A stretch of DNA of 9,731 bases from Candidatus Hermodarchaeota archaeon (GTDB taxonomy: Archaea; Asgardarchaeota; Hermodarchaeia; Hermodarchaeales; Hermodarchaeaceae). The DNA lies in NCBI GenBank assembly GCA_016840595.1, contig JAEOSA010000062.1:1-9731 (forward strand), written 5' to 3'. The translations under genes were made by a program, and so were the position numbers. This document shows positions 1 to 9,731 of the stretch, one piece after another; the first letter of the stretch is position 1, and each line of letters starts with the position of its first letter. The notes under the pieces were generated by a model that was given only the letters and a program-made list of their open reading frames with translations, did not search any database and was not told the origin of the DNA.

Positions 1-23
1 AAAGAAAAATTTGCCAATGCCGG

Positions 24-34
24 CTTATAATAAC
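24..34 (-). promoter_or_regulatory. possible TATA box for a gene beyond the left edge
   Basis: Read on the minus strand this is GTTATTATAAG, a good archaeal TATA-like sequence. It lies just past a repeat copy (41-100), the same arrangement seen before other minus-strand genes here. A transcript would start near position 1-8 and run out of the window, so the gene it would serve cannot be seen. Confidence 0.3.
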
Positions 35-40
35 AACTCA

Positions 41-100
41 AAAAGTGGTCGTCCACACCCGCCAACCGTAAATCACTGGTTTTTCCCTAAACACTTAGCT
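41..100 (-). repeat. dispersed repeat, copy 1
   Basis: The core GTGGTCGTCCAC at 45-56 is a perfect 4-bp stem with a TCGT loop. On the minus strand it is followed by TTTTTGAG. Beyond the core (57-100) it resembles copies 6 and 7, with a GGTTTTTCC stretch at 78-86 and an AAACAC motif at 89-94. It starts about 70 bp after the stop of the membrane protein gene (124-660), so it could end that gene's transcript. Confidence 0.7.
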
Positions 101-123
101 CGTGCAGCTCCCCACATTACGCC

Positions 124-660
124 CTAGGGTGTTATCAGATAAATACCAATTAACCCAATGAAGAAGACGCAAATAATCAGCCAAAAAACGATAAACGAAA
201 TTGGAATTAATCTCCCCCACGAACTTCCTCTAATTTTTAGAAACTCCAGATTTGTATCCTCAATCTGTTTCCCACTCCATATCTTATAATCTGGGAATTT
301 CTCCATCCGTTTTTCTAAATTCTTCGCCAATGACACATAGAACTTCCGCCATTTATCTGCCGTCTGAATAGTTGCGAGCCAAAACACTGAGACAAGCAGA
401 CAAAAGATAATGATGATGACCGACAATATTGTGGCAAAGAAATTCCATGAAAGCGGAGTCGATTGAAAGATGATTGCCGAGGGAAACAAACTCCAAAGGA
501 CCGCAGCAAAAATCGAATTAAAAACTAAAAACACACCTTGTCGCTGCCACCAAAGGTTATTTTCAAAAATCACTAAATTAACAAGCGTTCCCAGATGCTC
601 TAGTAGCTCCTCTGTATCATATTTAACGTCCAAATCTTTTTCTTTCCCCAAAACTATCAA
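124..660 (-). CDS. small integral membrane protein, three predicted helices
   Basis: The protein is 178 aa and has no recognised enzyme motif. Hydrophobic segments lie at about residues 43-65, 73-98 and 150-176. A polar, charged, probably helical part (about 99-148) sits between helices 2 and 3, and an acidic N-terminal stretch precedes the motif FENNLWWQRQ. A helix pair joined to a charged cytoplasmic stretch recalls small membrane families of the 8xMP/RipA and SLATT kind, but this is a resemblance of shape, not a firm assignment. No ATG lies near the 5' end in this frame. The TTG at 658-660 is the longest choice; another TTG at 631-633 follows a GGGGAAAG stretch and suits the TATA-like box at 669-679 better. 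The gene appears to be transcribed alone, with repeat copies on both sides. Real gene: likely. Function: unknown. Confidence 0.7.
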   Translation of the reverse strand: MIVLGKEKDLDVKYDTEELLEHLGTLVNLVIFENNLWWQRQGVFLVFNSIFAAVLWSLFPSAIIFQSTPLSWNFFATILSVIIIIFCLLVSVFWLATIQTADKWRKFYVSLAKNLEKRMEKFPDYKIWSGKQIEDTNLEFLKIRGSSWGRLIPISFIVFWLIICVFFIGLIGIYLITP

Positions 661-668
661 CCCAAATT

Positions 669-679
669 AAGATAAATAA
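669..679 (-). promoter_or_regulatory. TATA-like box of the membrane protein gene
   Basis: The minus strand reads TTATTTATCTT just upstream of the 124-660 gene. A start of transcription about 26 bp on would fall near 645-650, past the TTG at 660. This favours the internal TTG at 631-633 as the start codon. Confidence 0.3.
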
Positions 680-715
680 TACAGATACTTCTATTAATTC
701 TGTTGCATGAAAAAG

Positions 716-731
716 AAAAGGTCGTCCACCC
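716..731 (-). repeat. dispersed repeat, copy 2 (core only)
   Basis: GGTCGTCCACCC at 720-731 matches the repeat core, but the outer stem bases are lost (AAGG at 718-721 against CCAC), so the hairpin would be weak. On the minus strand it runs into TTTTCTTTTT. It lies about 25 bp beyond the stop codon of the 755-1069 ORF and about 40 bp before the TATA-like box of the membrane protein gene. Confidence 0.55.
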
Positions 732-754
732 AAATTACGATGAGCTTTCCTTGT

Positions 755-1069
755 TTATTGTTTAACACGTTCCAGCAGACATACGCCTCGTGAGAAGCCT
801 ACTGCGCGCCACCCAAACTTTGCCATGTAATTCAGCGCTTCGGCCAGCGTCTCAACAATTTGACCCATATGACCCCGCATGAAAACATATCGGGACGTAA
901 GCTGGGCAACATCCACCTTTCCTTTCAACACATCCTTTGCTGAAAAATACACACGATCTGACATACCCATTACACAACCAAATGTAAGTACTCTAGCTAT
1001 TCGTCCGCTATCATCAAGAAGTTTTTCATCTAAAAAAGTGGTCGTCAACCCTGCCAATCGATACAGCAC
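755..1069 (-). CDS. small DUF4177-like protein, start uncertain
   Basis: The C-terminal half (residues about 62-104, with LNYMAKFGWRAVGF and then a strand CLLERVKQ) has the pattern of DUF4177-type small proteins: a helix, then a GW motif and an edge strand ending in basic residues. No function is known for that family. The longest ORF is 104 aa and starts at a GTG that lies at the inner end of repeat copy 3, so its first dozen residues would be repeat-encoded. That is doubtful: no good Shine-Dalgarno site precedes it, and the same repeat in copy 6 is out of frame by one base. In-frame ATGs at 968-970 and 962-964 give proteins of 71 and 69 aa, also without a clear ribosome site. This may be a short real gene, or the remnant of a longer one cut by the repeat. 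Confidence 0.45.
   Translation of the reverse strand: MLYRLAGLTTTFLDEKLLDDSGRIARVLTFGCVMGMSDRVYFSAKDVLKGKVDVAQLTSRYVFMRGHMGQIVETLAEALNYMAKFGWRAVGFSRGVCLLERVKQ
1032..1069 (-). repeat. dispersed repeat, copy 3
   Basis: The core GTGGTCGTCAAC is at 1038-1049, with one change that breaks a stem pair. On the minus strand it is followed by TTTTTTAG. The flank GCCAATCGATACAGCAC (1053-1069) matches copy 6 (GCTAATCGATACAACAT at 5603-5619) at all but a few bases. It lies about 80 bp past the stop of the winged-helix gene and overlaps the 5' end of the 755-1069 ORF. Confidence 0.7.
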
Positions 1070-1129
1070 CCCTGTTCCCGAGTGAGATTCACGTCCTTTA
1101 TCTTGTTTACAGGGAATTTTGGGGTCATT

Positions 1130-1426
1130 TTAATGGGTGTTTCCATCAGTGGATTGATATTTCAACAAACGGAAACGCCCTCGAGACGGTTTGTACACCT
1201 TTTCTGGAAATTTCTGGACAAGCTTCCACACGCATCCGTTGACCGTTTTCGGATGGAAATTTGGATATGCTTCCTCAATCTTTGAGCGCAGTTCTGTAAA
1301 ACGCAACCCCTCTGGATGCTGTTCTAGTAATTCCAATGCTTTTGCATAGATACGTCCCGTAATCGTGGAGGACCGTTTAGGACCTTCCTTACCATTAGAT
1401 TTTTCCGCTTTTTTGGTTTCATTCAT
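1130..1426 (-). CDS. small winged-helix DNA-binding protein
   Basis: This 98-aa protein begins with about 25 lysine/serine-rich, probably disordered residues. One winged-helix domain follows (about 26-90): helix ALELLEQHPEGLRFTEL, a second helix with KIEEAYPNF, a recognition helix around PKTVNGCVWKLVQKFP (59-74), and a basic wing KVYKPSRGRFRLLKY (76-90). The wing pattern (VYKP-S-RG-FR) recalls the winged-helix module found alone or next to restriction-type nucleases in archaea and bacteria. No nuclease part is present here, so it is probably a stand-alone DNA-binding protein; its target is unknown. The ATG start is supported by a GGAG site (1437-1440) ten bases upstream. It has its own possible promoter and is flanked by repeat copies 3 and 4. 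Confidence 0.75.
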   Translation of the reverse strand: MNETKKAEKSNGKEGPKRSSTITGRIYAKALELLEQHPEGLRFTELRSKIEEAYPNFHPKTVNGCVWKLVQKFPEKVYKPSRGRFRLLKYQSTDGNTH

Positions 1427-1460
1427 TTTCGCTTTTCTCCTTAGAATCGTAATTGCTAGA

Positions 1461-1471
1461 ATTTACTAAAA
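1461..1471 (-). promoter_or_regulatory. possible promoter of the winged-helix gene
   Basis: The minus strand reads TTTTAGTAAAT, a weak TATA-like box ending just beside repeat copy 4. A start about 26 bp on would fall near 1440, where the GGAG ribosome site begins, giving a very short leader. Confidence 0.3.
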
Positions 1472-1474
1472 GCG

Positions 1475-1494
1475 AAATGGTCGTCCATCCCAGC
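1475..1494 (-). repeat. dispersed repeat, copy 4
   Basis: ATGGTCGTCCAT at 1477-1488 differs from the consensus at both outer positions, but the two changes still pair (G-C has become A-T), so the stem is kept. CCCAGC (1489-1494) continues the consensus. It lies about 35 bp past the stop of the hydrolase gene and directly before the possible promoter of the winged-helix gene. Confidence 0.65.
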
Positions 1495-1521
1495 CTATGA
1501 GACATGACCAAGGTAATGTAG

Positions 1522-2424
1522 TTATTTGGCATGCTGCAAAATTGCCCCTAATAATCGCGGAGCTTCAGCTTCCGGTAAACTATGTCCCATTCCCTCAACA
1601 ACAATCAGTTTTGACCCCGGAATCGCTGCTGCCGTGGCTTTCCCGCCCTCAACGGGAACTAGCGGATCTGCATCCCCATGCACCACCAAGGTGGGACTCT
1701 CCACCGACTTCAACGCCTCCGTCCAATTCCCAGAGGTAAAAATCGCCGCCAATTGTCGCTTCATACCTTGGGGATAATAACTGCGATCAAAAGCCTGCCC
1801 CGCAAAGGTACGCACCAGCTCCTCATTGACTGGATAATTCGTACCCTGCATTACCCACGCACTTTCAACCTTAAAATCACAATACGCGTCACGATCCGCG
1901 GGGGGCGCCTGTAAAATGATTTCTCGCGCCTCCTCAGTCGCCATCCACTCCTGAGAATACCCCGGACAGGACATCCCCGATATAAACGTCCGTACTCGAT
2001 CTGGAAAATGAATGCATATCTGCTGACCAATCATTCCTCCCATCGAAACCCCCACCACATGCGCGGCCTCAATGTTCAACACATCCAGCAACCCCACCAC
2101 ATCCTGCGCCATATCCTTCACCAAATACGGCGCCGATAACTCGCCCTCACCCGAACACCAAAACGATCGTAACACCTCAACACTCGGCACCCCCGCTGCC
2201 TCAAATTTCGTCGACTTCCCCACATCCCGATTATCAAACCGCACCACAAAATACCCCGCCGCCGCCAACACCCGACACGACGCCTCATCCATCCCAATCA
2301 TCTGCCCCCCCAACCCATTAACTAACATCATCGCCGGGTCTACTGGGTCACCAAACGTATCGTAACACAACTCCACATCATTCACTTTCACAAGCGTTTC
2401 CGCACTCTGCACAACCTTTTCCAT
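1522..2424 (-). CDS. alpha/beta hydrolase
   Basis: A 300-aa alpha/beta-hydrolase fold enzyme, probably a soluble esterase or related hydrolase. The catalytic set is complete: nucleophile elbow GVSMGG (Ser127), acid in HGDADPLVP (Asp253, or Asp251), and histidine in GMGHSLP (His281). The oxyanion region is VNGLGG, and RFDNRDVGKST is the usual strand-4 motif in the style of RdmC/aclacinomycin methylesterase-like bacterial proteins. A cap (about residues 150-225) follows the nucleophile; the substrate cannot be read from the sequence. The ATG at 2422-2424 is chosen because GGAGGG (2431-2436) lies six bases before it; an upstream in-frame GTG (2440-2442) would add six residues but overlaps that site. 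The gene is richer in G+C than its neighbours, which suggests transfer from bacteria. It seems monocistronic. Confidence 0.92.
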   Translation of the reverse strand: MEKVVQSAETLVKVNDVELCYDTFGDPVDPAMMLVNGLGGQMIGMDEASCRVLAAAGYFVVRFDNRDVGKSTKFEAAGVPSVEVLRSFWCSGEGELSAPYLVKDMAQDVVGLLDVLNIEAAHVVGVSMGGMIGQQICIHFPDRVRTFISGMSCPGYSQEWMATEEAREIILQAPPADRDAYCDFKVESAWVMQGTNYPVNEELVRTFAGQAFDRSYYPQGMKRQLAAIFTSGNWTEALKSVESPTLVVHGDADPLVPVEGGKATAAAIPGSKLIVVEGMGHSLPEAEAPRLLGAILQHAK

Positions 2425-2430
2425 CACAAA

Positions 2431-2436
2431 CCCTCC
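2431..2436 (-). promoter_or_regulatory. ribosome binding site that fixes the hydrolase start
   Basis: GGAGGG on the minus strand with a six-base spacer to the ATG at 2422-2424. It argues against the longer GTG start at 2442. Confidence 0.75.
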
Positions 2437-2458
2437 ACCCACCCCTACCCACCTCGAG

Positions 2459-2466
2459 AAATAAAA
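2459..2466 (-). promoter_or_regulatory. TATA-like box of the hydrolase gene
   Basis: TTTTATTT on the minus strand. A start of transcription about 26 bp on (near 2436) would give a leader of roughly 12 bases that just includes the ribosome site. Confidence 0.45.
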
Positions 2467-2584
2467 TCATTTCCCAAACAATGCATCCGCTCACACACTA
2501 ACATGAAAAGAAAAGTGTTCTCCTAGTCAATGCATAGCAATTAACCTGCGAATTTTAAATTCATCAGGATAATCTTATTAATTA

Positions 2585-2594
2585 CTATATAAAA
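2585..2594 (+). promoter_or_regulatory. TATA box of the 138-aa zinc-ribbon gene
   Basis: CTATATAAAA followed by an A-run is a strong archaeal TATA box. Transcription would start near 2615 and leave a leader of about 35 bases before the ATG at 2653. The rest of the divergent gap 2443-2652 is A+T-rich, with no gene visible. Confidence 0.6.
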
Positions 2595-2652
2595 AAAAGT
2601 CGAATACTAATCTCGAGTAAGTTCTGTATACCGAATTTTGGTTGGATAGGCA

Positions 2653-3069
2653 ATGGTTCAACGAAAAATCGAGCTTGGTCGGATAAAATTTGGGAGTCAT
2701 CGAAGTAAAACACTTACTGATGCACTGGGTATTCCAGCGAGTGAATTCGATAGGCTAGTTGGATTTGCACGAGAAGCGTGGAACTATGGGGATACAATCT
2801 CAAAAAGCGTTGAATACCTCGCAATGCGTCTCAAAAACTCTCGGTTTGTCTTGGCGGTATTAATTCTCGGACGAATATGGGAGGAGCAGCAAAAGGGAAC
2901 AGGTGAGAAGGACATCCAACAGATATCACCGTACCTAGCCCCTCCCGACGTTGTTCACACCAAAGAAATTATCCGTGAACGCGAAGTCGTATTCATCCGT
3001 TGCCCATCCTGTAACACCAAAAACGAAGAAGGGTCCAAATTCTGTGCTCACTGCGGTGCACCACTGTAG
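2653..3069 (+). CDS. orphan helical protein with C-terminal zinc ribbon
   Basis: This 138-aa protein is not recognised by family. Residues about 15-85 look all-helical (TLTDALGIPASEFDRLVGFAREAWN, then a SKSVEYLAMRL helix and an LAVLILGRIWEEQQ helix). A proline-rich, charged linker follows. The last 22 residues form a short zinc ribbon with Cys117, Cys120, Cys131 and Cys134 (CPSC...FCAHCGAPL), the common archaeal zinc-ribbon tail that binds one zinc and often mediates protein or nucleic acid contact. There is no signal peptide or membrane segment, so it should be cytoplasmic. The ATG follows TTGGATAGGCA, a weak ribosome site. It stands alone, divergent from the hydrolase and convergent with the substrate-binding protein. 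Function unknown. Confidence 0.8.
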   Translation: MVQRKIELGRIKFGSHRSKTLTDALGIPASEFDRLVGFAREAWNYGDTISKSVEYLAMRLKNSRFVLAVLILGRIWEEQQKGTGEKDIQQISPYLAPPDVVHTKEIIREREVVFIRCPSCNTKNEEGSKFCAHCGAPL

Positions 3070-3125
3070 TCTTTGGCTCCACCCCCTCTTTGATTCCGAA
3101 ATACCCCTACCACAGATAGGCTGAA

Positions 3126-3147
3126 GAAATGGTCGCCCACCCAAAAA
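3126..3147 (-). repeat. dispersed repeat, copy 5 (core only)
   Basis: ATGGTCGCCCAC at 3129-3140 is a diverged core with one unpaired outer base. It lies 27 bp past the stop of the substrate-binding protein gene, in the gap between two convergent genes. No minus-strand promoter follows it, so this copy fits a 3'-end role better than a promoter role. An A6 run (3143-3148) lies on its gene side, which is a T6 run on the minus strand. Confidence 0.55.
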
Positions 3148-3176
3148 AGAGGGAAGTGGCTCCCCACTAGGGAGCC
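3143..3176 (-). terminator. hairpin plus T-run at the end of the substrate-binding protein gene
   Basis: On the minus strand GGCTCCC (3170-3176) pairs exactly with GGGAGCC (3158-3164). The five-base loop TAGTG contains the stop codon (3167-3169). CTTTTTT follows after about nine bases (3143-3149). This resembles an intrinsic terminator overlapping the last codons of the gene. Archaeal termination relies mainly on the T-run, so the hairpin may instead protect the 3' end. Confidence 0.5.
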
Positions 3177-5500
3177 TCTGGTTGACGTCGACGGAGCCAA
3201 AACAGCACTAAGAATCCATGTATGACAACACTTGCCAACCCGATGACCCCTAGAGCCGCTAACCATAACTCAAAGACGTCTGGTGGCAGGGGGTCGCCTG
3301 GGGGATCAATGTGAAACTGGATCATTTCATAGGTTTCGCCTTGCACCCAGCCCTCCTTGAGGATAATCGCATGCACATACACTAGATAGATGCCCTTCGG
3401 CCATTTCAGGTCCTTAAGCGTTAAGTCACTGGTATACGTGTAGAGCCCGGGCTCAGGAATCGTTTCGGTAAGGGAAAAACGGTTCCACTCAGCTCCATCC
3501 GGACCATAGAGCGTTGCGGATAATACCGCTCCTGAAATCGGTTCACCTGTTTCGAAATCTGTCAGTAAGGCCGCTATCTGGAAGAGAATCTCTTCTTTTT
3601 CGAGAAAGTCAAAGCTACCGCTCACTTGTAGTTGACCTCGCCTTGGTAATATGTAGCCAGCCTTAGCAAGTAACTCCGCTGCGCGTTCAGGATTATACTC
3701 ATAGGGGCTAAGTGAGGAATCGAATGCTGGGAGTAAGGGATGAATCGGTGTAATTCCTGGTGTGCCATAACCGTTTAGAATTTCATCAATGATTTGCTGT
3801 CGAGGAATGAGGTGGTTGAGCGCCTGCCTGACATACCGTGCCGCCTCTGTTGCCCGGCTAGGGTCGGTTTGACCAAGTGGTGTCGCTTCGCCAGTACCCA
3901 AAATGGGATGGCGCATATTGAACCCTACCTCTTGATAACCTGGATGAGGTTCAATAAAGATAGTACCCCAACTAGAATCAATCCAATCGAGATGATTCTG
4001 AAGCAGGTAATTAGCAATCAGATTTACGTTTCCAGCTTCCAGTGCTGCAATTGCTTCTTCTGCTGAGGGAATTGTTAATGCGGCATAGGTCTCAGGCATA
4101 TCTGTAATACCAAATCCGGTTGATCCCATAAAATATCCTGGATCTGGATTGGTAGGGTCTGTTACTAGGTCACGGCGTCGTGTTCTGAAAATTTGGTTCT
4201 CCCAGTCCATCCCCGTGTCAGGTTCATGACAGACATATGGTCCAAGGCCTAGGGGACCGTAGACATCATAGTCGTGAATGTATGTGCCACCGTAATTCGC
4301 CAAAGTTGTCCAGAGACCACCACGATTGGAGGGATGTTCTCTCCAATCCTCGAAGGGGATATCCTTCATTGCAACATATGATATCGGACACACATTCAGA
4401 TAGAGTTTAGCCCAAAAATTTGGCTGAGGTAAAGTGACTCTAAGGGTAAATTCATCAATAATTTCAAAATCATTGATGTCTACACCCATCGCTCGAAAAT
4501 TGGCAGACTCGTATGGAAACCCAATTACAGGGTCCATAGCAGCTTGATAGGTTAGATAAAGGTCGCTGGCATTGAAGCGGAATCCTGTTGGCCAGTAAAT
4601 GTCATCACGGAGATAAATTGTCCAGATACATCCATCTTCACTTACATCATAGGGCGCAGCTGCAAGAGTAGGGGTCAATTCATGGGCGAAGCTTGCATCG
4701 TTATTAGCATAGGTAAAGAGGTGTTCGTAGGTAGGGTTGATGGCTCTACGGTCATATATCGAACCTGTGAAAATAGGGTTCAAGTTCTCTGGATTTCCAA
4801 GTTGAGCAACGATAAGGTCTCCTCCGCCTGCAGGGAAGCGAATTTGCGGGTCACCCGCCTGTATCTGAAAGATATATGTGCAATCTTCGAGGTTATTGAG
4901 GTTTGGATCGTATACCCAAATGTCCTTAGGATAATGGAGAATCGCGCTAGGTGTCTCCTCGATAATATATTGTTGCCAGTCCCGAATTAACTGATTGCGT
5001 ATCGTCTCATCGGCTTCATTAGCAATCTCTTCAATGAGGGCATCATTGATTTCATCTTCCCAAAGAAGATAGTTTAGACCAATGGGAGGCAAGCTTTCAG
5101 AATGAAGATTCCAGTAAGGATCTGGATTTGACCAGGTATTTATACCCAGACATAAAGTATCCCATCCTCCATCTGCAAACGTCGAACCGATCACTTCTTC
5201 AGATGGGTAAAACACCCGTGACCACCAAAATCCAAAGTTATCAACGTGGATCTGTACATCAATATTCGCTTCTGCAAAAGATTCTGCAATCATTTCGTTC
5301 CACAAAATGCGATCCGGATTAGTATCAGGACATCCAAGCACGAGCGAAAAAAAAGGCTCCTGGGGTTCAGCAGTCACTGTTGTAGACGAACTCGCAAATA
5401 TTGGAACAAACGCTAGCATCAGTAGAAACACTACTACAATTTTTATTCGAAACTTTCCCAAAGTTCCCACCCTAAATAGGGTAATTCGTGCATTAAACAC
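3167..5500 (-). CDS. membrane-anchored family 5 solute (peptide)-binding protein, apparently circularly permuted
   Basis: A 777-aa cell-surface binding protein of the SBP_bac_5 (oligopeptide/dipeptide, DppA/OppA) type. Order of parts: N-terminal hydrophobic signal (about 18-44); a module (52-205) with the hallmarks of the usual C-terminal lobe (NPDRILWNEMIAESF, NIDVQIHVDNF, GGWDTL, NPDPYWNLH, IIEETPSAILHYPKDIWVYDP); the usual N-terminal parts (226-615: GGGDLIVAQLGNPENLNPIF, then YLRDDIYWPTGFRFNASD, then ARYVRQALNHLIPRQQI and YNPERAAELLAKAGY); an Ig-like stalk (about 628-732, with FETGEPISGAVLSATLYGPDG); a C-terminal membrane helix (about 743-769) and a basic RRRQ end. It should be held outside the membrane and pass its ligand to an ABC permease, but no permease or ATPase gene is in the window. 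The start is uncertain: GTG at 5500 is longest, and the TTG at 5459-5461 follows GGGTGGG and keeps the signal peptide. Confidence 0.88.
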   Translation of the reverse strand: MFNARITLFRVGTLGKFRIKIVVVFLLMLAFVPIFASSSTTVTAEPQEPFFSLVLGCPDTNPDRILWNEMIAESFAEANIDVQIHVDNFGFWWSRVFYPSEEVIGSTFADGGWDTLCLGINTWSNPDPYWNLHSESLPPIGLNYLLWEDEINDALIEEIANEADETIRNQLIRDWQQYIIEETPSAILHYPKDIWVYDPNLNNLEDCTYIFQIQAGDPQIRFPAGGGDLIVAQLGNPENLNPIFTGSIYDRRAINPTYEHLFTYANNDASFAHELTPTLAAAPYDVSEDGCIWTIYLRDDIYWPTGFRFNASDLYLTYQAAMDPVIGFPYESANFRAMGVDINDFEIIDEFTLRVTLPQPNFWAKLYLNVCPISYVAMKDIPFEDWREHPSNRGGLWTTLANYGGTYIHDYDVYGPLGLGPYVCHEPDTGMDWENQIFRTRRRDLVTDPTNPDPGYFMGSTGFGITDMPETYAALTIPSAEEAIAALEAGNVNLIANYLLQNHLDWIDSSWGTIFIEPHPGYQEVGFNMRHPILGTGEATPLGQTDPSRATEAARYVRQALNHLIPRQQIIDEILNGYGTPGITPIHPLLPAFDSSLSPYEYNPERAAELLAKAGYILPRRGQLQVSGSFDFLEKEEILFQIAALLTDFETGEPISGAVLSATLYGPDGAEWNRFSLTETIPEPGLYTYTSDLTLKDLKWPKGIYLVYVHAIILKEGWVQGETYEMIQFHIDPPGDPLPPDVFELWLAALGVIGLASVVIHGFLVLFWLRRRQPEAP

Positions 5501-5527
5501 GGTGAACCAGATTCTGGTACATTCTTT

Positions 5528-5540
5528 CTCTTATAATTTG
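5528..5540 (-). promoter_or_regulatory. TATA box of the substrate-binding protein gene
   Basis: CAAATTATAAGAG on the minus strand. Transcription would start near 5505, leaving almost no leader for the GTG at 5500 or about 45 bases for the TTG at 5461. Repeat copy 6 ends about 50 bp upstream. Confidence 0.5.
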
Positions 5541-5582
5541 TCAAAAACCTCGTTAAAAGAGCGATGCGAAAATGAAAGCAAG

Positions 5583-5697
5583 AAAAGTGGTCGTCCACCC
5601 CAGCTAATCGATACAACATAGGTTTTTTCCAATGAAACACCCAGCTCCCTATGCCCACTCCACTCCAAGATGCCCGGAATGGCATTTCAGATGAAAT
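5583..5697 (-). repeat. dispersed repeat, copy 6 (long form)
   Basis: The core GTGGTCGTCCAC (5587-5598) is perfect and is followed on the minus strand by TTTTCTTGC. The copy runs about 110 bp and aligns along its length with copy 7 at roughly 70% by eye, with an identical 21-base block (5629-5649 here, 6525-6545 there). Around that block GGTTTTTT and AAACACC can form a second stem with a CCAATG loop. It fills most of the gap after the HEAT-repeat gene and precedes the substrate-binding protein promoter. An ORF through it exists on the minus strand, but the frame is not kept between copies. Confidence 0.8.
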
Positions 5698-5745
5698 AGA
5701 TTCTTTGACATTAATCCAGTCACTGGTCTCCACATTATTACGAGT

Positions 5746-6423
5746 TTAGCCTAGACGACGTAGTGCAGTTTCTGCGGCTTCTTGCAAGCTGAGCTTAGTT
5801 AATCCAATCTCTTGGGCAACAGGTTCCATACCGATCATTTCGCCATCCATGAAGAGCTCTTCGACATCAATTACTGGAGCATTCGGGTCTGCCGCGATTG
5901 CAGTGAGCGGGTCTCGTGCCCTAGTGTCTCCAATTTTCCCCAGCGCACCAATAGCCATCCATCGTGTCGGAATGTCCGAATCAGTCAGTCGTTGAATTAA
6001 AGGTTCTACCGCTAAGGGATTCCCAATCATTCCTAGCGCCCACGCTGCAGGGCGGCGCAACCAACTATCTGAGGCGGTTAATGCCTGAAGCAATTGTTCC
6101 ACGGCTCGTGGCTCACGAACTCGACCCACAACCATCGCCATGGAAGTTTGTTCAAAGATATTCCCATCTTGGAGCAAACCGATTACCGCGTCCATCGCTG
6201 GATCACCAATCACACCCAGCGCATCGGCGGCCTCGAATGTTACCGGTAACGGATAATCCTGCAACGCCTTGAGTAATGGTTCAATGGCCTGCTGGTCTTT
6301 CAATGCTCCAAGTGCTCGGATGCATGCAATCTGTTCTTCTTCTTTCTTTGTTTTTTGAAGCAATGTCACTAACCCTGCGACATCGCGCTTCTCAACAAGC
6401 TTATCCACTTTCGACTTACCCAT
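5746..6423 (-). CDS. HEAT-repeat protein
   Basis: The 225-aa protein is made almost wholly of about six HEAT/PBS-lyase-type helical repeats of 30-31 residues, starting near 14, 45, 76, 106, 137 and 168. The typical pattern is AIEPLLKAL followed by ALGxIGD (for example 66-74, 129-136, 159-167). Such solenoids are protein-binding scaffolds; a few relatives act on phycobilins or tRNA, but nothing here points to catalysis. The last repeat is broken by an acidic, methionine-rich insert (about 184-205, VIDVEELFMDGEMIGMEPV) before its final helix, a possible regulatory or partner-binding loop. There is no signal peptide, so it is probably cytoplasmic. The ATG at 6421-6423 follows GGTGGTGGGATGGG. A TATA-like box is at 6461-6470. 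The partner is unknown, and the neighbouring genes do not suggest one. Confidence 0.88.
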   Translation of the reverse strand: MGKSKVDKLVEKRDVAGLVTLLQKTKKEEEQIACIRALGALKDQQAIEPLLKALQDYPLPVTFEAADALGVIGDPAMDAVIGLLQDGNIFEQTSMAMVVGRVREPRAVEQLLQALTASDSWLRRPAAWALGMIGNPLAVEPLIQRLTDSDIPTRWMAIGALGKIGDTRARDPLTAIAADPNAPVIDVEELFMDGEMIGMEPVAQEIGLTKLSLQEAAETALRRLG

Positions 6424-6460
6424 AATCCCATCCCACCACCTGAATGGGTGTCCATGCCAT

Positions 6461-6470
6461 TAAATTATTT
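6461..6470 (-). promoter_or_regulatory. TATA-like box of the HEAT-repeat gene
   Basis: AAATAATTTA on the minus strand. The predicted start is near 6440, giving a leader of about 15 bases. The core of repeat copy 7 ends only about 15 bp upstream of this box. Confidence 0.4.
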
Positions 6471-6481
6471 CCATCTCAAAA

Positions 6482-6594
6482 CAGGTGGTCGTCCATTCCA
6501 GCAGTTCGTCCAACACCGGGTTTTCCAATGAAACACCCAGCTCCCAATCCCACCCTCCAATCCAAGACTTCCTGAAAGGCGTCTCAGAGGAAAT
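6482..6594 (-). repeat. dispersed repeat, copy 7 (long form), in a divergent gap
   Basis: The core GTGGTCGTCCAT is at 6485-6496. The long form extends to about 6594 and aligns with copy 6. GGGTTTT (6518-6524) and AAACACCC (6531-6538) pair around a CCAATG loop with one bulged C. Unlike the other six copies it has no minus-strand gene before it: the next gene is the divergent 6696-7961 gene. It may be a relic of a lost gene end, or show that the element moves or acts on its own. Confidence 0.75.
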
Positions 6595-6621
6595 GAATAT
6601 TTATAACATTATGATATAGTT

Positions 6622-6645
6622 ACAAAATAATTCAGGCATTTAAAC
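6622..6645 (+). promoter_or_regulatory. promoter region of the 421-aa gene
   Basis: Two A+T-rich candidates are present: ACAAAATAAT (6622-6631) and CATTTAAA (6637-6644). They imply starts near 6652 or 6667. Both leave room for the GGAGGG ribosome site at 6682-6687. I cannot choose between them. Confidence 0.35.
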
Positions 6646-6681
6646 CCCTTTTTGAGGAGTAAAATTGCCTGTTCTTTAATT

Positions 6682-6687
6682 GGAGGG
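6682..6687 (+). promoter_or_regulatory. ribosome binding site of the 421-aa gene
   Basis: GGAGGG with an eight-base spacer to the ATG at 6696, which fixes that start. A second site, GAGGAG (6654-6659), lies about 28 bases upstream and precedes a tiny TTG-started frame of four codons (6665-6679). Confidence 0.7.
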
Positions 6688-6695
6688 AAATTCAA

Positions 6696-7961
6696 ATGGA
6701 TGCGAAGGAATTCCGAAAATTATATCGAGATAAGTTTAATGAGTTGAATCTTTGGAAGCTTCTCCAGGATATCTGGCGTGACCACTTGATTTTCAAATGG
6801 GAACAATCACCTCGAGATAGGTTTCTGCATCTTCCAGACATTCAAGTTGATATTCTTCAACATGGGGCTCCTGATAAAAAGAAGAATCGGGCCACATTAA
6901 CGTTTAAAGTTAGAATGAACAAGAAAATTCCTGGAATAAGATCAAAGATTTTGTTTAACAAGGACGAAAATAAGGGTTGGGCGCAACTCTCAGATGACGA
7001 TCCACTCCAAAAAATCCTCTCCAAAAACTCTCAACTAAAAACCCTATATGACGAACTACCAGAGAATGATTTACTTCGTAGGTTTGATTACCGGGTTTCT
7101 GACAACGATGTTTTCAATAAAAGATTTGAAATGGCATTTATGGATTCGGAGGACATTTCGAAACTTCCCCGTGAAGAAATGTTCAAACATTTAGGTGCTG
7201 TAATGGTTCGTGGAGTATTTATTTTCCATTTGGCTCAACCAACATACATTTCATGTAGTACTGTTTTCGATGTTGAGTTCGATAAATGGTTGAAACTGGT
7301 CAAACAACAAGAAGACTACGCGATTCCTTTTAACAGTGTAAAAAAATTCATAACGAATCTTACCAATAACGTCCAACAATTCGGATTTGACCCAGTACCA
7401 GGACAACGTCGCTTGATAGACCTTGAAACAGACGAAGAATACCAACTCCGAAAACGGAGCCGCGAACAGCTCCTCAATCCTATTCGCAATTATCTTGCCC
7501 TAAATAACCCGTTGGATCGTGAAAATCTAAAACAACTCAACGACTTCTACCAAATTCTAGAATCAACCTATAAAGAATGGAGACAGACTGAGACAAGACG
7601 AACTGGGTGGACTAAACAATGGTTAGAGGACGTCTACATAACAAGTCATCGGGCAGGTATCACTAAACGTGTTTCCAAAAAGGGAACCAAAGACTCGCCT
7701 TTTAAAGACCTAGCCAAAAGAGCCAAGAAAGGGAAATCAATTGACGAATGGCAAGTCGCCTTATTCTTAAATTCCATACTAGAATGGCTTGGTCCCGGAG
7801 AAAACCTTGCCAACGCCGATCTCAACATGACTCTCAAACAAGCCCATGACCAAATTGAAGAACGTTTTAACATCCCCCTCACTGGGAATAAATGCCAAAC
7901 CTGTGAAACGATAAACCCTGAAACACACACCACCTGCTACTGGTGCCACAAATCGATATGA
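6696..7961 (+). CDS. unrecognised 421-aa protein with C-terminal zinc ribbon
   Basis: I do not recognise the family. The protein is soluble, with no signal peptide or membrane helix, and charged throughout. The N-terminal two thirds look mixed alpha/beta (an amphipathic helix at 4-30, strands around ATLTFKVRM and the AVMVRGVFIFHLAQPTYIS stretch near residues 168-186). A lysine/arginine-rich region around 297-345 could touch nucleic acid. The last 25 residues form a zinc ribbon with Cys400, Cys403, Cys414 and Cys417 (CQTC...TCYWC). The ATG is fixed by GGAGGG eight bases upstream. Base composition is A+T-rich, unlike the hydrolase. It is transcribed away from the HEAT-repeat gene, and nothing around it hints at a pathway. 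Real gene: nearly certain. Function: open. Confidence 0.85.
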   Translation: MDAKEFRKLYRDKFNELNLWKLLQDIWRDHLIFKWEQSPRDRFLHLPDIQVDILQHGAPDKKKNRATLTFKVRMNKKIPGIRSKILFNKDENKGWAQLSDDDPLQKILSKNSQLKTLYDELPENDLLRRFDYRVSDNDVFNKRFEMAFMDSEDISKLPREEMFKHLGAVMVRGVFIFHLAQPTYISCSTVFDVEFDKWLKLVKQQEDYAIPFNSVKKFITNLTNNVQQFGFDPVPGQRRLIDLETDEEYQLRKRSREQLLNPIRNYLALNNPLDRENLKQLNDFYQILESTYKEWRQTETRRTGWTKQWLEDVYITSHRAGITKRVSKKGTKDSPFKDLAKRAKKGKSIDEWQVALFLNSILEWLGPGENLANADLNMTLKQAHDQIEERFNIPLTGNKCQTCETINPETHTTCYWCHKSI

Positions 7962-8142
7962 TATCCGGGCAATATCAGTTTCAGCTCTTTAAAGATACGG
8001 GGCTCTCCAAATCACATTTCTGAGTTATTCTTCGGGTCATTCCCAAAACTTCTCTAATATTGCCTGGCTAACCAAAACCCCGAAAACAACACCGGTTATT
8101 CCAATACTACACCCAAACTCCTACCGCACATAAGTCTCCCAA

Positions 8143-8163
8143 GGTATCCCCACAGGGATAACC
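8143..8163. repeat. bulged inverted repeat
   Basis: GGTATCCC (8143-8150), a four-base CACA loop, and GGGATAACC (8155-8163) pair with one extra A. No clear T-run follows on either strand, so it is not an obvious terminator. It could be the 3' end structure of the 421-aa gene transcript or chance. Confidence 0.3.
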
Positions 8164-8248
8164 CAGAAGAAACGCATTATTAAGAGGAAAAGGTCTCCTC
8201 ATGGTGTCTTTTGTTGATTTTAGATATTTATGAAAATATTGACATAAA

Positions 8249-8256
8249 CTATAAAT
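8249..8256 (+). promoter_or_regulatory. TATA box of the FG-GAP protein gene
   Basis: CTATAAAT. Transcription would start near 8276-8280, only a few bases before the GGAGGG site at 8283, giving a short leader that fits the TTG start at 8295. Confidence 0.5.
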
Positions 8257-8282
8257 GAAACTAGAATGGGAAAGGGAAACTC

Positions 8283-8288
8283 GGAGGG
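8283..8288 (+). promoter_or_regulatory. ribosome binding site that selects a TTG start
   Basis: GGAGGG with a six-base spacer to TTG at 8295-8297. The first in-frame ATG (8316-8318) would lie 27 bases from this site, too far. The TTG start also adds the basic residues K and R that a signal peptide needs. Confidence 0.65.
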
Positions 8289-8294
8289 ACCCTT

Positions 8295-9731
8295 TTGGTT
8301 TCAAAATATTCGAGAATGTTCTTTCTCATATTATCACTTAGCTTGCTCTTTGGATCCGTGTTGGTTCTCGAAACTTCAAGCAATATCAACGTGCATGTGA
8401 GTGAGAGATACCATCCGGGTATTTCAGAAACTGGTGCATCCATCGTTACTCCATCTCTAGTGTGGCCTGATGACTTCCATGATGTGAACTATGATGGTTT
8501 GACCGTGAACACAGGCTTGTCACCTACTAAGTTACCAATACCTAGCCCAAGTACTGAATTGGTTTGGTCCTACAATGGTTCAAGTCAATTGAATAGTCTG
8601 GGTGATGTGGACGGAGACGGGCAAATAGAAATGGTGATGTCGAATGTTTCATTGGCAGGTGGACGCCAAGTCATCTCAATCTGGAAATACGACTTAATGA
8701 ATCAAGCTTGGAACATGTGGGCATACGATGAAATTACAGCAGATGGTCTCGTGGCTTGGTCACTGGATTTAGACCATGATGGCACGGCTGAATTGCTTTT
8801 AAATAAGCGATTGACATCGAGCTCCTATTCGAATGTCGTGGTCTTAGCACACTGGACTGAAACAGGACTGGTGGAGCTCACCAATGAATTCACTATCAGC
8901 GGAGCACTATACGGTGGTCCTGACGCTTACGATTTTGATGGTGACGGCGTAGATGAAATCTCGCTTTGTAGTGGTTATACGAGTGGTTCATCAGCATGGA
9001 TACTCGATTGGACAGGTAGCAGTCTAATCGAAATGTGGCGTCGCAATTTCGGAACCACCTGGATGGCAGACACCAAAATCGCCAATGTTGATGACGAACC
9101 AGGGATGGAACTAGTAATCATCGAAGGACGGGATGGGAGGTTCGAAATCTATGACTGGACTGGCACCACCTTCATCCCCTTATTACAAACAACTATCGAT
9201 TTAGGTTGGATCTACACCGGTCTCCGTGCCCTATTCGTGGATGACTTCAATCAAAATGGCATCAATGAAGTTGTCGTAGGCACTGGTTGGCACCATGTCG
9301 GTGACGAGAATATCGATGCGTATTTGATCGTTTACGAATGGACGGGAACTGAGTTTGAACAGACTTATTGGAGCCCAGACTACCGCCGCCAACTCTATTA
9401 TGGCATTCAAGCCGATCTTACTGGAGATGGTATCAGTGAAATTATCCTCAACTACGGGGAGGATATTGATCGACCTGGTGCTGATCCGCACGTCTCGATT
9501 CGTAAGTGGAACGGGACAGCCTTTGATGAAATTTGGCGGTGGAGCGTAGAACGACCAGTCCTGTGTGCAGTAGCCGATGTTGACAATGATGGTAGACTAG
9601 AATTCTTTGCAACAGATCGTCCATATCATGAGCCAGTGTTCTGGCAATGGACAGGAATGTTTGAATTCACTCATTTTCCACATTCTCCCATTGTAATAGA
9701 TGGTGACGAGGATTTTGTTAACCAAGCTTGG
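8295..9731 (+). CDS. secreted FG-GAP/VCBS-type beta-propeller protein (partial, 3' end missing)
   Basis: 479 codons are visible and the frame is open to the window edge. Residues 1-28 form a signal peptide (MVSKYSR, then a hydrophobic core FFLILSLSLLFGSVLVL). A short linker follows, then repeated calcium-binding loops of the FG-GAP/VCBS (integrin-like) kind: GDVDGDGQIE (103-112), LDLDHDGTAE (157-166), YDFDGDGVDE (212-221), ANVDDEPGME (263-272), VDDFNQNGINE (315-325), ADLTGDGISE (373-382) and ADVDNDGRLE (427-436). The spacing is about 51-58 residues, so seven units could close a seven-bladed propeller. WTG turns recur between them (for example 239-241, 288-290, 349-351, 452-454). Role: extracellular, probably adhesion or ligand binding. 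No anchor is seen, but it could lie in the missing part. The TTG start is chosen from the GGAGGG spacing and the signal peptide. Confidence 0.88.
   Translation, partial: MVSKYSRMFFLILSLSLLFGSVLVLETSSNINVHVSERYHPGISETGASIVTPSLVWPDDFHDVNYDGLTVNTGLSPTKLPIPSPSTELVWSYNGSSQLNSLGDVDGDGQIEMVMSNVSLAGGRQVISIWKYDLMNQAWNMWAYDEITADGLVAWSLDLDHDGTAELLLNKRLTSSSYSNVVVLAHWTETGLVELTNEFTISGALYGGPDAYDFDGDGVDEISLCSGYTSGSSAWILDWTGSSLIEMWRRNFGTTWMADTKIANVDDEPGMELVIIEGRDGRFEIYDWTGTTFIPLLQTTIDLGWIYTGLRALFVDDFNQNGINEVVVGTGWHHVGDENIDAYLIVYEWTGTEFEQTYWSPDYRRQLYYGIQADLTGDGISEIILNYGEDIDRPGADPHVSIRKWNGTAFDEIWRWSVERPVLCAVADVDNDGRLEFFATDRPYHEPVFWQWTGMFEFTHFPHSPIVIDGDEDFVNQAW

Follow-up and report, generated by a model that had tools for sequence, protein, structure and literature searches.

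An array of short gene cassettes that lacks the integrase IntI is called a CALIN (cluster of attC sites lacking integron-integrases). Asgard archaea have been reported to show an enrichment of integrons, most of which lack IntI (PMC9668308). In Dehalococcoides, tandem units with variable cargo lie downstream of the transfer-messenger RNA (tmRNA) gene ssrA, bounded by 20-bp direct repeats of its 3′ end; 16 islands have a serine-recombinase integration module, and some units are without integration genes (PMC3146451). HeimM2, a single 8-kb element with its own homing-endonuclease-like gene, adjoins the only 16S ribosomal RNA (rRNA) gene of Heimdallarchaeum, and Wu et al. suggested for it a co-opted homing endonuclease (PMC8813620). 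In the bacterium SAR11, the hypervariable region HVR2, which spans 48 kb from 23S to 5S as a single block and contains an integrase gene, adjoins rRNA genes, and these were proposed as homologous recombination sites; attC was reported absent (PMC2217521). Here we analysed a 9,731-nt stretch of Candidatus Hermodarchaeota archaeon (assembly GCA_016840595.1, contig JAEOSA010000062.1, positions 1 to 9,731; hereafter the window) and loci related to it, and found a real gene-cassette array with repeats of the type that trails the 16S rRNA gene.

Four observations establish the array: copies of the repeat form one-directional clusters, the genes between copies differ, units shared between arrays have different neighbours, and in two genomes a copy stands behind 16S. 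The explanation that we favour, though only somewhat above even, is that the copies are direct repeats bounding small gene cassettes that accreted serially at the 16S 3′ end.

An earlier note on this DNA had placed seven copies of a core, GTGGTCGTCCAC, in one orientation. Allowing up to two mismatches, we find plus-strand matches at exactly 45, 718, 1038, 1477, 3129, 5587 and 6485, all seven cores in the same orientation, as claimed. Since the core is nearly palindromic, those at 45 and 5587 are matched on the minus strand as well, and the window holds nine matches in all; 0.57 were expected, and none of 200 shuffles had as many. The core is real, but its 12 bases form only the 3′ end, on the minus strand, of a longer element (about 120 nt): in the alignment of copies similarity extends about 110 nt further upstream, and the window holds an eighth copy. 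Read on the minus strand, the core is GTGGACGACCAC, followed by a T-rich stretch, another feature noted earlier; at least five T occur in the 8 nt after the core in 29 of 33 cores overall and in 6 of the 7 in the window. A profile model, R1, was built from 12 copies and has 122 positions. The copies in the window, all on the minus strand, are as follows.

35..145, minus: element copy 1, core 45-56; R1 36.3 bits, E 3e-10; overlaps the 3′ end of the gene at 124-660 by 22 nt
708..734, minus: element copy 2, 3′ part only, core 718-729; R1 10.1 bits (weak; barely matching the full model, E 0.05 and 0.15); core matrices 28.4 and 29.3 bits
1028..1140, minus: element copy 3, core 1038-1049; R1 28.0 bits; overlaps the listed 5′ end of the open reading frame (ORF) at 755-1069
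1467..1498, minus: element copy 4, 3′ part, core 1477-1488; R1 22.3 bits
3121..3148, minus: element copy 5, core only, core 3129-3140; core matrices 19.8 and 23.2 bits, no R1 match
5577..5697, minus: element copy 6, full length, core start 5587; R1 103.2 bits
5701..5726, minus: 26 nt resembling the 16S rRNA 3′ end, just upstream of copy 6; 17 of 26 in register
6475..6594, minus: element copy 7, full length, core start 6485; R1 95.4 bits; 77.5% identical to copy 6
8054..8173, minus: element copy 8, additional to the earlier seven, decayed core; R1 50.1 bits, E 2e-14, no core-matrix match

No Rfam family exceeded its gathering score in the window or at the elements in the other loci scanned, and two sub-threshold matches to small nucleolar RNAs lie away from the elements. 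Copies 1 to 6 stand 68, 26, 81, 34, 27 and 148 bp after the ends of minus-strand genes, within the 20 to 150 bp described before. The companion claim, that no copy follows the end of a plus-strand gene, is wrong: the plus-strand genes at 2653-3069 and 6696-7961 are followed by copy 5 after 60 bp and by copy 8 after 93 bp, respectively.

In a genome-contig collection, a strict 22-position pattern of the element matched only L001 (H03M_Hermod_104) and L002 (Ca. Hermodarchaeum yapensis), two contigs that both carry the label Hermodarchaeia, and two exact patterns had 0 matches among the viral contigs of IMG/VR. Searched with R1, 39 relatives of one genome, G002, gave seven matching genomes at E <= 0.01, four of them strong (G001, G002, G003 and G005). 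With stricter filters, 227 genomes of the phylum gave five at E <= 1e-4, namely these four and G216. The four carry one-directional clusters, and G216 has a single copy. We took as chance the weak matches in G015, G032 and G033 (E 0.002-0.004) and on contig C22 of G005 (E 0.008), and likewise L068:6887-6981 (E 0.14), the sole match of 37 that opposes the orientation of its contig.

Strong copies point one way on each contig: minus in G002 C9, G002 C71, G003 C1 and G001 C393, and plus in G005 C25, G001 C129 and G001 C429. A 28-column core matrix (at least 15 bits) gave 35 matches on the array strand of 10 array loci and 0 on the opposite strand, and 0 in the 196,884 bases of 28 control loci (both strands counted); because the matrix was built from these same cores, only the opposite strand and the control loci are independent. 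Identity between elements hardly differs within genomes (0.588) and between them (0.561). These data bear on the reading of the element as a dispersed mobile repeat of the MITE (miniature inverted-repeat transposable element) or REP (repetitive extragenic palindromic) type, inserted between genes by chance. Such a repeat would be multi-copy, mainly intergenic and able to form a hairpin in part, as this one is, but it would be dispersed in both orientations and not gathered in clusters of one, and genome-wide the core is no more frequent than a reversed-pattern control (11 against 11 in G001, 12 against 13 in G002). We consider this reading very improbable.

The intervals between successive elements or cores, counted over all arrays with our own choice of ORFs, contain one gene in 17 of 26 cases and two in 5; 6 of the 7 intervals in the window contain one. 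In G003 the last cassette is followed by a decayed element with core GTGGACGACCAA, which ends the array before an ABC-transporter operon, and in G002 the array on C9 ends before a complex-I/hydrogenase-like operon. Set against the outcomes that the earlier note had named as refuting, the copies occur beyond the window as well and are clustered, one-directional and mainly intergenic, but their orientation relative to flanking genes is random, which that note counted as a refuting sign and which here speaks against a signal linked to genes. Over seven loci, 24 of 45 genes are co-oriented with the element; the window contributes 6 of 8, L001 1 of 3, L070 0 of 2 and L071 3 of 3. Gene direction is thus mixed across arrays, and the link between copies and gene direction drawn earlier is a local feature of the window.

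The same count weighs on a second alternative, in which 16S has a transcription terminator or processing signal, the element, copies of which came to lie behind other genes and were kept there for termination. The run of T after the core, the element behind 16S in two genomes and the position of window copies 1 to 6 after minus-strand genes all speak for it. However, since the orientation of the element is not tied to that of the genes, gene termination fails to explain the pattern; moreover, copies are clustered and not genome-wide, the core stem shows no covariation beyond shuffles (see below), and pairing between the 16S leader and trailer is not significant in either G002 (z -1.2) or G216 (z +2.0). 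We judge this alternative distinctly unlikely. Of the options in the earlier note, a mobile-derived boundary element comes close to our best explanation, in which the copies mark joints between separately acquired genes. A role in gene termination does not account for the orientations, although a terminator would be compatible with the T-rich end and with the position behind 16S.

The cargo between elements is unrelated and accessory-looking, as judged by domain scans that covered part of the genes in these incomplete arrays; it includes methyltransferases, HXXEE, DUF4256, ATC hydrolase, nitroreductase, creatininase and luciferase-like proteins. Six units are common to arrays of different genomes (a TnpB-like gene common to L065 and L073 was excluded from this count, being a transposon gene).

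296-aa Fer4 protein: G002 and G003, 91% amino-acid identity
Creatininase: G002 and G001, 82%
380-aa protein: G002 and G001, 75%
Methyltransferase: G001 and G003, 74%
64-aa ORF: G002 and G001, 83%
115-aa region including its element: G001 and G003, 85% DNA identity

As far as the contigs extend, shared units have different neighbours, and apart from one weak match (see below) no two are adjacent in both arrays; several lie at contig ends, so that only some neighbours are visible. The limits of homology were informative for two of them. The Fer4 block (82% DNA identity) begins at CCACTTT, which is the 3′ half of the core; the sequence upstream of this point differs, and the block stops where the element starts. 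The 115-aa block takes in the element and continues for 9 nt after the core. A unit therefore looks like a T-rich start, a gene, an element and a core.

In G002, on contig C71, the element begins 8 nt past the 3′ end of 16S rRNA, the gene for which matches its model from 1 to 1478, with insertions. In the more distant G216 (C82) a copy likewise lies 8 bases past the 16S 3′ end, as a full-length 27-bit match with an exact core. Among the loci compared, the 16S of G216 is the closest to that of G002 (86% over the longest block of 590 nt, 82.9% weighted). We examined 31 Asgard 16S 3′ ends (30 loci, from 97 genomes with a match, and G216): the core matched behind 16S at 11 and 12 of 12 positions in G002 and G216, respectively, and at best at 6-8 in the other 29, one of which has only 92 nt behind 16S. 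Chains of unrelated genes separated by one-way copies, with such a copy directly behind 16S in two genomes, suggest that genes were added singly at this place, in an integron-like manner. The orientation in G002 fits a single array with its start on C71, behind 16S, and its remainder on C9, and we infer that the two contigs join. The 16S stretch of G002 also has a 42-nt match in G006.

Traces of 16S itself were sought upstream of the copies. A register test against the last 26 nt of 16S covered 25 array copies (it excluded L001:1-106 and partial copies, only 7 nt short of its reach). Two of the 25 scored at p ~1e-4 relative to random positions, namely window copy 6 (17 of 26) and G002 L066:6338 (18 of 26); in a local-alignment test of the 16S tail, 4 of 20 copies reached p <= 0.014. 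Before one element (L070:1-220, L068:18993-19103) we noted CCTCCTAAGAA or a close variant, which resembles the 16S 3′ end and on the other strand would serve as the Shine-Dalgarno sequence of a gene apparently starting there; it is possibly a 16S-derived ribosome binding site, and possibly a coincidence. In G216, a gene for a BglII-like restriction endonuclease (L117:3360-3851, minus) is found downstream of both 16S and the single element.

The 16S gene of G002 (L067:619-4212, minus) spans 3.6 kb against the 1.48-kb model and thus carries large inserts, one of which holds a LAGLIDADG protein (1319-1903, minus); that of G216 also has inserts, one near the 3′ end. Such enzymes offer a variant of the mechanism in our best explanation: LAGLIDADG enzymes of 16S introns would cut the 16S 3′ region, and repair would copy in DNA flanked by trailers. 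The protein within the G002 locus, the 3′-proximal insert in G216 and the precedent of HeimM2 beside 16S (PMC8813620) are consistent with this. No homing endonuclease of this kind was recognised among the cassette proteins scanned, which represent part of the genes, and we give this route a slim chance.

The left part of the element forms a strong hairpin in some copies only, z being below -5 (-5.4 to -6.7) in 4 of 24 and -1.65 on average. The right domain has no more structure than its shuffles (mean z -0.38, n=27), RNAalifold over the whole element gave a 5-bp core hairpin only, and column covariation on the sequence alignment revealed no coherent helices. The double change in the stem of copy 4 (A..T), cited earlier as an argument for selection on a structure, is real. 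Over 33 cores, however, there is no covariation beyond shuffles (2 of 132 cells changed on both sides, a number reached by 389 of 500 shuffles) and the outer stem pairs are broken in 6, and we set aside selection on the core stem as not supported.

Sites of the attC type have complementary RYYYAAC and GTTRRRY boxes. With complementary pairing required, strict boxes were found at 0 of 34 junctions, against 0.11 in shuffles, in a search for which no positive control was run. The tyrosine recombinase family PF00589 has 8 matches in four draft genomes; none of the seven scanned reaches the cut-off of the integron-integrase models (the eighth, L079, was outside the scan), and three of the seven exceed that of the archaeal XerA family, the NCBI name of which includes 'integron integrase'. 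Serine recombinases, also considered, had no family match in the four genomes, and no integrase was recognised among the cassette proteins scanned, again part of the genes of these incomplete arrays. These results bear on a third alternative, a true integron array without integrase (a CALIN) whose attC sites have drifted and were recombined as folded single strands by IntI in trans. In its favour are the same gene-repeat-gene layout with tandem short cassettes and one-directional sites, the predominance of integrons without IntI in Asgard archaea, the strong folding of the left part in a few copies and the XerA family name. On the other side stand the absence of strict boxes, the right domain, the integrase models and gene orientation, with 24 of 45 genes co-oriented where archaeal integrons are generally of the same orientation (PMC9668308). 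We regard a CALIN as unlikely.

How, then, could such arrays arise by serial accretion at 16S? Each repeat would be a copy of the region just behind 16S, a few retaining a remnant of the 16S 3′ end, and would consist of a left part with hairpin-forming capacity, a right part that is conserved, the core and a T-rich end. Recombination in or close to the core would add cassettes with such trailer copies successively to the 16S 3′ end and would leave 16S with a full trailer after each insertion. Candidate enzymes are a tyrosine recombinase of the XerA-like type, supplied in trans, or else a homing endonuclease from 16S introns together with repair.

Several observations weigh against this explanation. 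An array beside 16S is seen in G002 only, and there a contig end interrupts it; in G216 the single copy is not part of an array, and no further copy exceeds chance; and the 16S 3′ stretch of G002 has no match in G001, G003 or G005. In the register test 23 of 25 copies are without signal at p<0.01, and in the local-alignment test window copy 6 reaches only p 0.054. When the 16S of another species is the query, the two best copies give p 0.06 (window copy 6) and 0.018. No match to PF00589 or PF00239 lies on the array contigs. Four of the 26 intervals hold three, four, four and seven genes. The arrays of G002 and G003 have different distal neighbours. The decay of copies expected away from the upstream end does not reach significance overall (59 against 43 pairs, p 0.17), and only G003 taken alone shows it (p 0.045). 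A pair of weak homologues (29% amino-acid identity) lies near the same 380-aa gene in two arrays. Lastly, the nine proteins of the window have no relative at E 1e-5 in the other array loci.

A bolder form of the idea is that Hermodarchaeia possess a dedicated integron-like platform for gene capture, with the 16S 3′ end and its trailer as insertion site, served by its own recombinase or homing nuclease and supplied with a replacement trailer by each cassette. We put this forward tentatively, as doubtful but possible. If it were true, the most essential transcription unit of the cell would be a docking site for cassettes, with the 16S 3′ flank used as a recombination boundary, and Asgard archaea, relatives of the ancestor of eukaryotes, would collect genes singly at a fixed place, by a route different from the integrons reported in them. 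This would give a testable answer to the question of how single accessory genes enter these genomes. Among the titles and starts of abstracts that our searches of the open-access literature returned, we found no such 16S-derived array.

The genes of the window are listed below; all but the last are cassette genes.

124..660, minus: 8xMP membrane protein (PF24838, 41.3 bits)
755..1069, minus: gene without assigned function; the listed start overlaps copy 3, and the true start is probably later
1130..1426, minus: possible winged helix (PF23159, 20.7 bits, below the cut-off of 27.6)
1522..2442, minus: alpha/beta hydrolase (PF00561, 79 bits)
2653..3069, plus: zinc-ribbon protein (PF13240, 33.9 bits)
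3167..5500, minus: substrate-binding protein of SBP family 5 (PF00496, 134.9 bits)
5746..6423, minus: HEAT-repeat protein (PF13646, 126.8 bits)
6696..7961, plus: 421-aa protein, no Pfam family in the Pfam scan
8295..9731, plus: FG-GAP repeat protein, upstream of copy 8 on the element strand and running off the window (PF13517, 51.1 bits)

Only three ENA entries hold close relatives of the SBP family 5 protein, at 50-53% identity; its next best matches, among 7996 candidates scored, reach at most 28% over at least 40% of the query. Defence cargo was considered and set aside: one of ten proteins scanned, the HEAT-repeat protein of the window, matches two PADLOC models, probably through repeat similarity. 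On the element-bearing contig L073, a TnpB/Cas12f-like gene (2031-3068, minus) is 86% identical to a gene of G002 C9 outside the array and points to an IS605-type element nearby. Two HXXEE-family genes, L068:10148-10642 and 14429-14923 (minus), are 71% identical and occupy separate places in one array.

Among known systems, serial insertion that leaves direct repeats at the 16S 3′ end, with parallels in the Dehalococcoides tmRNA islands (PMC3146451) and in HeimM2 (PMC8813620), fits the evidence. With the ssrA islands the arrays share tandem units and variable cargo, and would share a place downstream of an RNA gene; they differ in that this gene would be 16S and not tmRNA, the repeat is about 120 nt and not 20 bp, units mostly hold one or two genes, and a serine-recombinase match is absent from the four genomes. 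HeimM2 is one element with its own enzyme gene, and the available sections of its description do not describe a repeat array (PMC8813620). The arrays resemble SAR11 HVR2 as variable regions that, in G002 at least, adjoin an rRNA gene, but HVR2 is bacterial and a single region between 23S and 5S (PMC2217521). Short cassettes between one-directional repeats are common to these arrays and to integron arrays and CALINs, including archaeal ones (PMC9668308). Unlike integrons, however, the arrays described here are without strict attC boxes, have genes in random orientation, and have a site tied to 16S and not to intI/attI.

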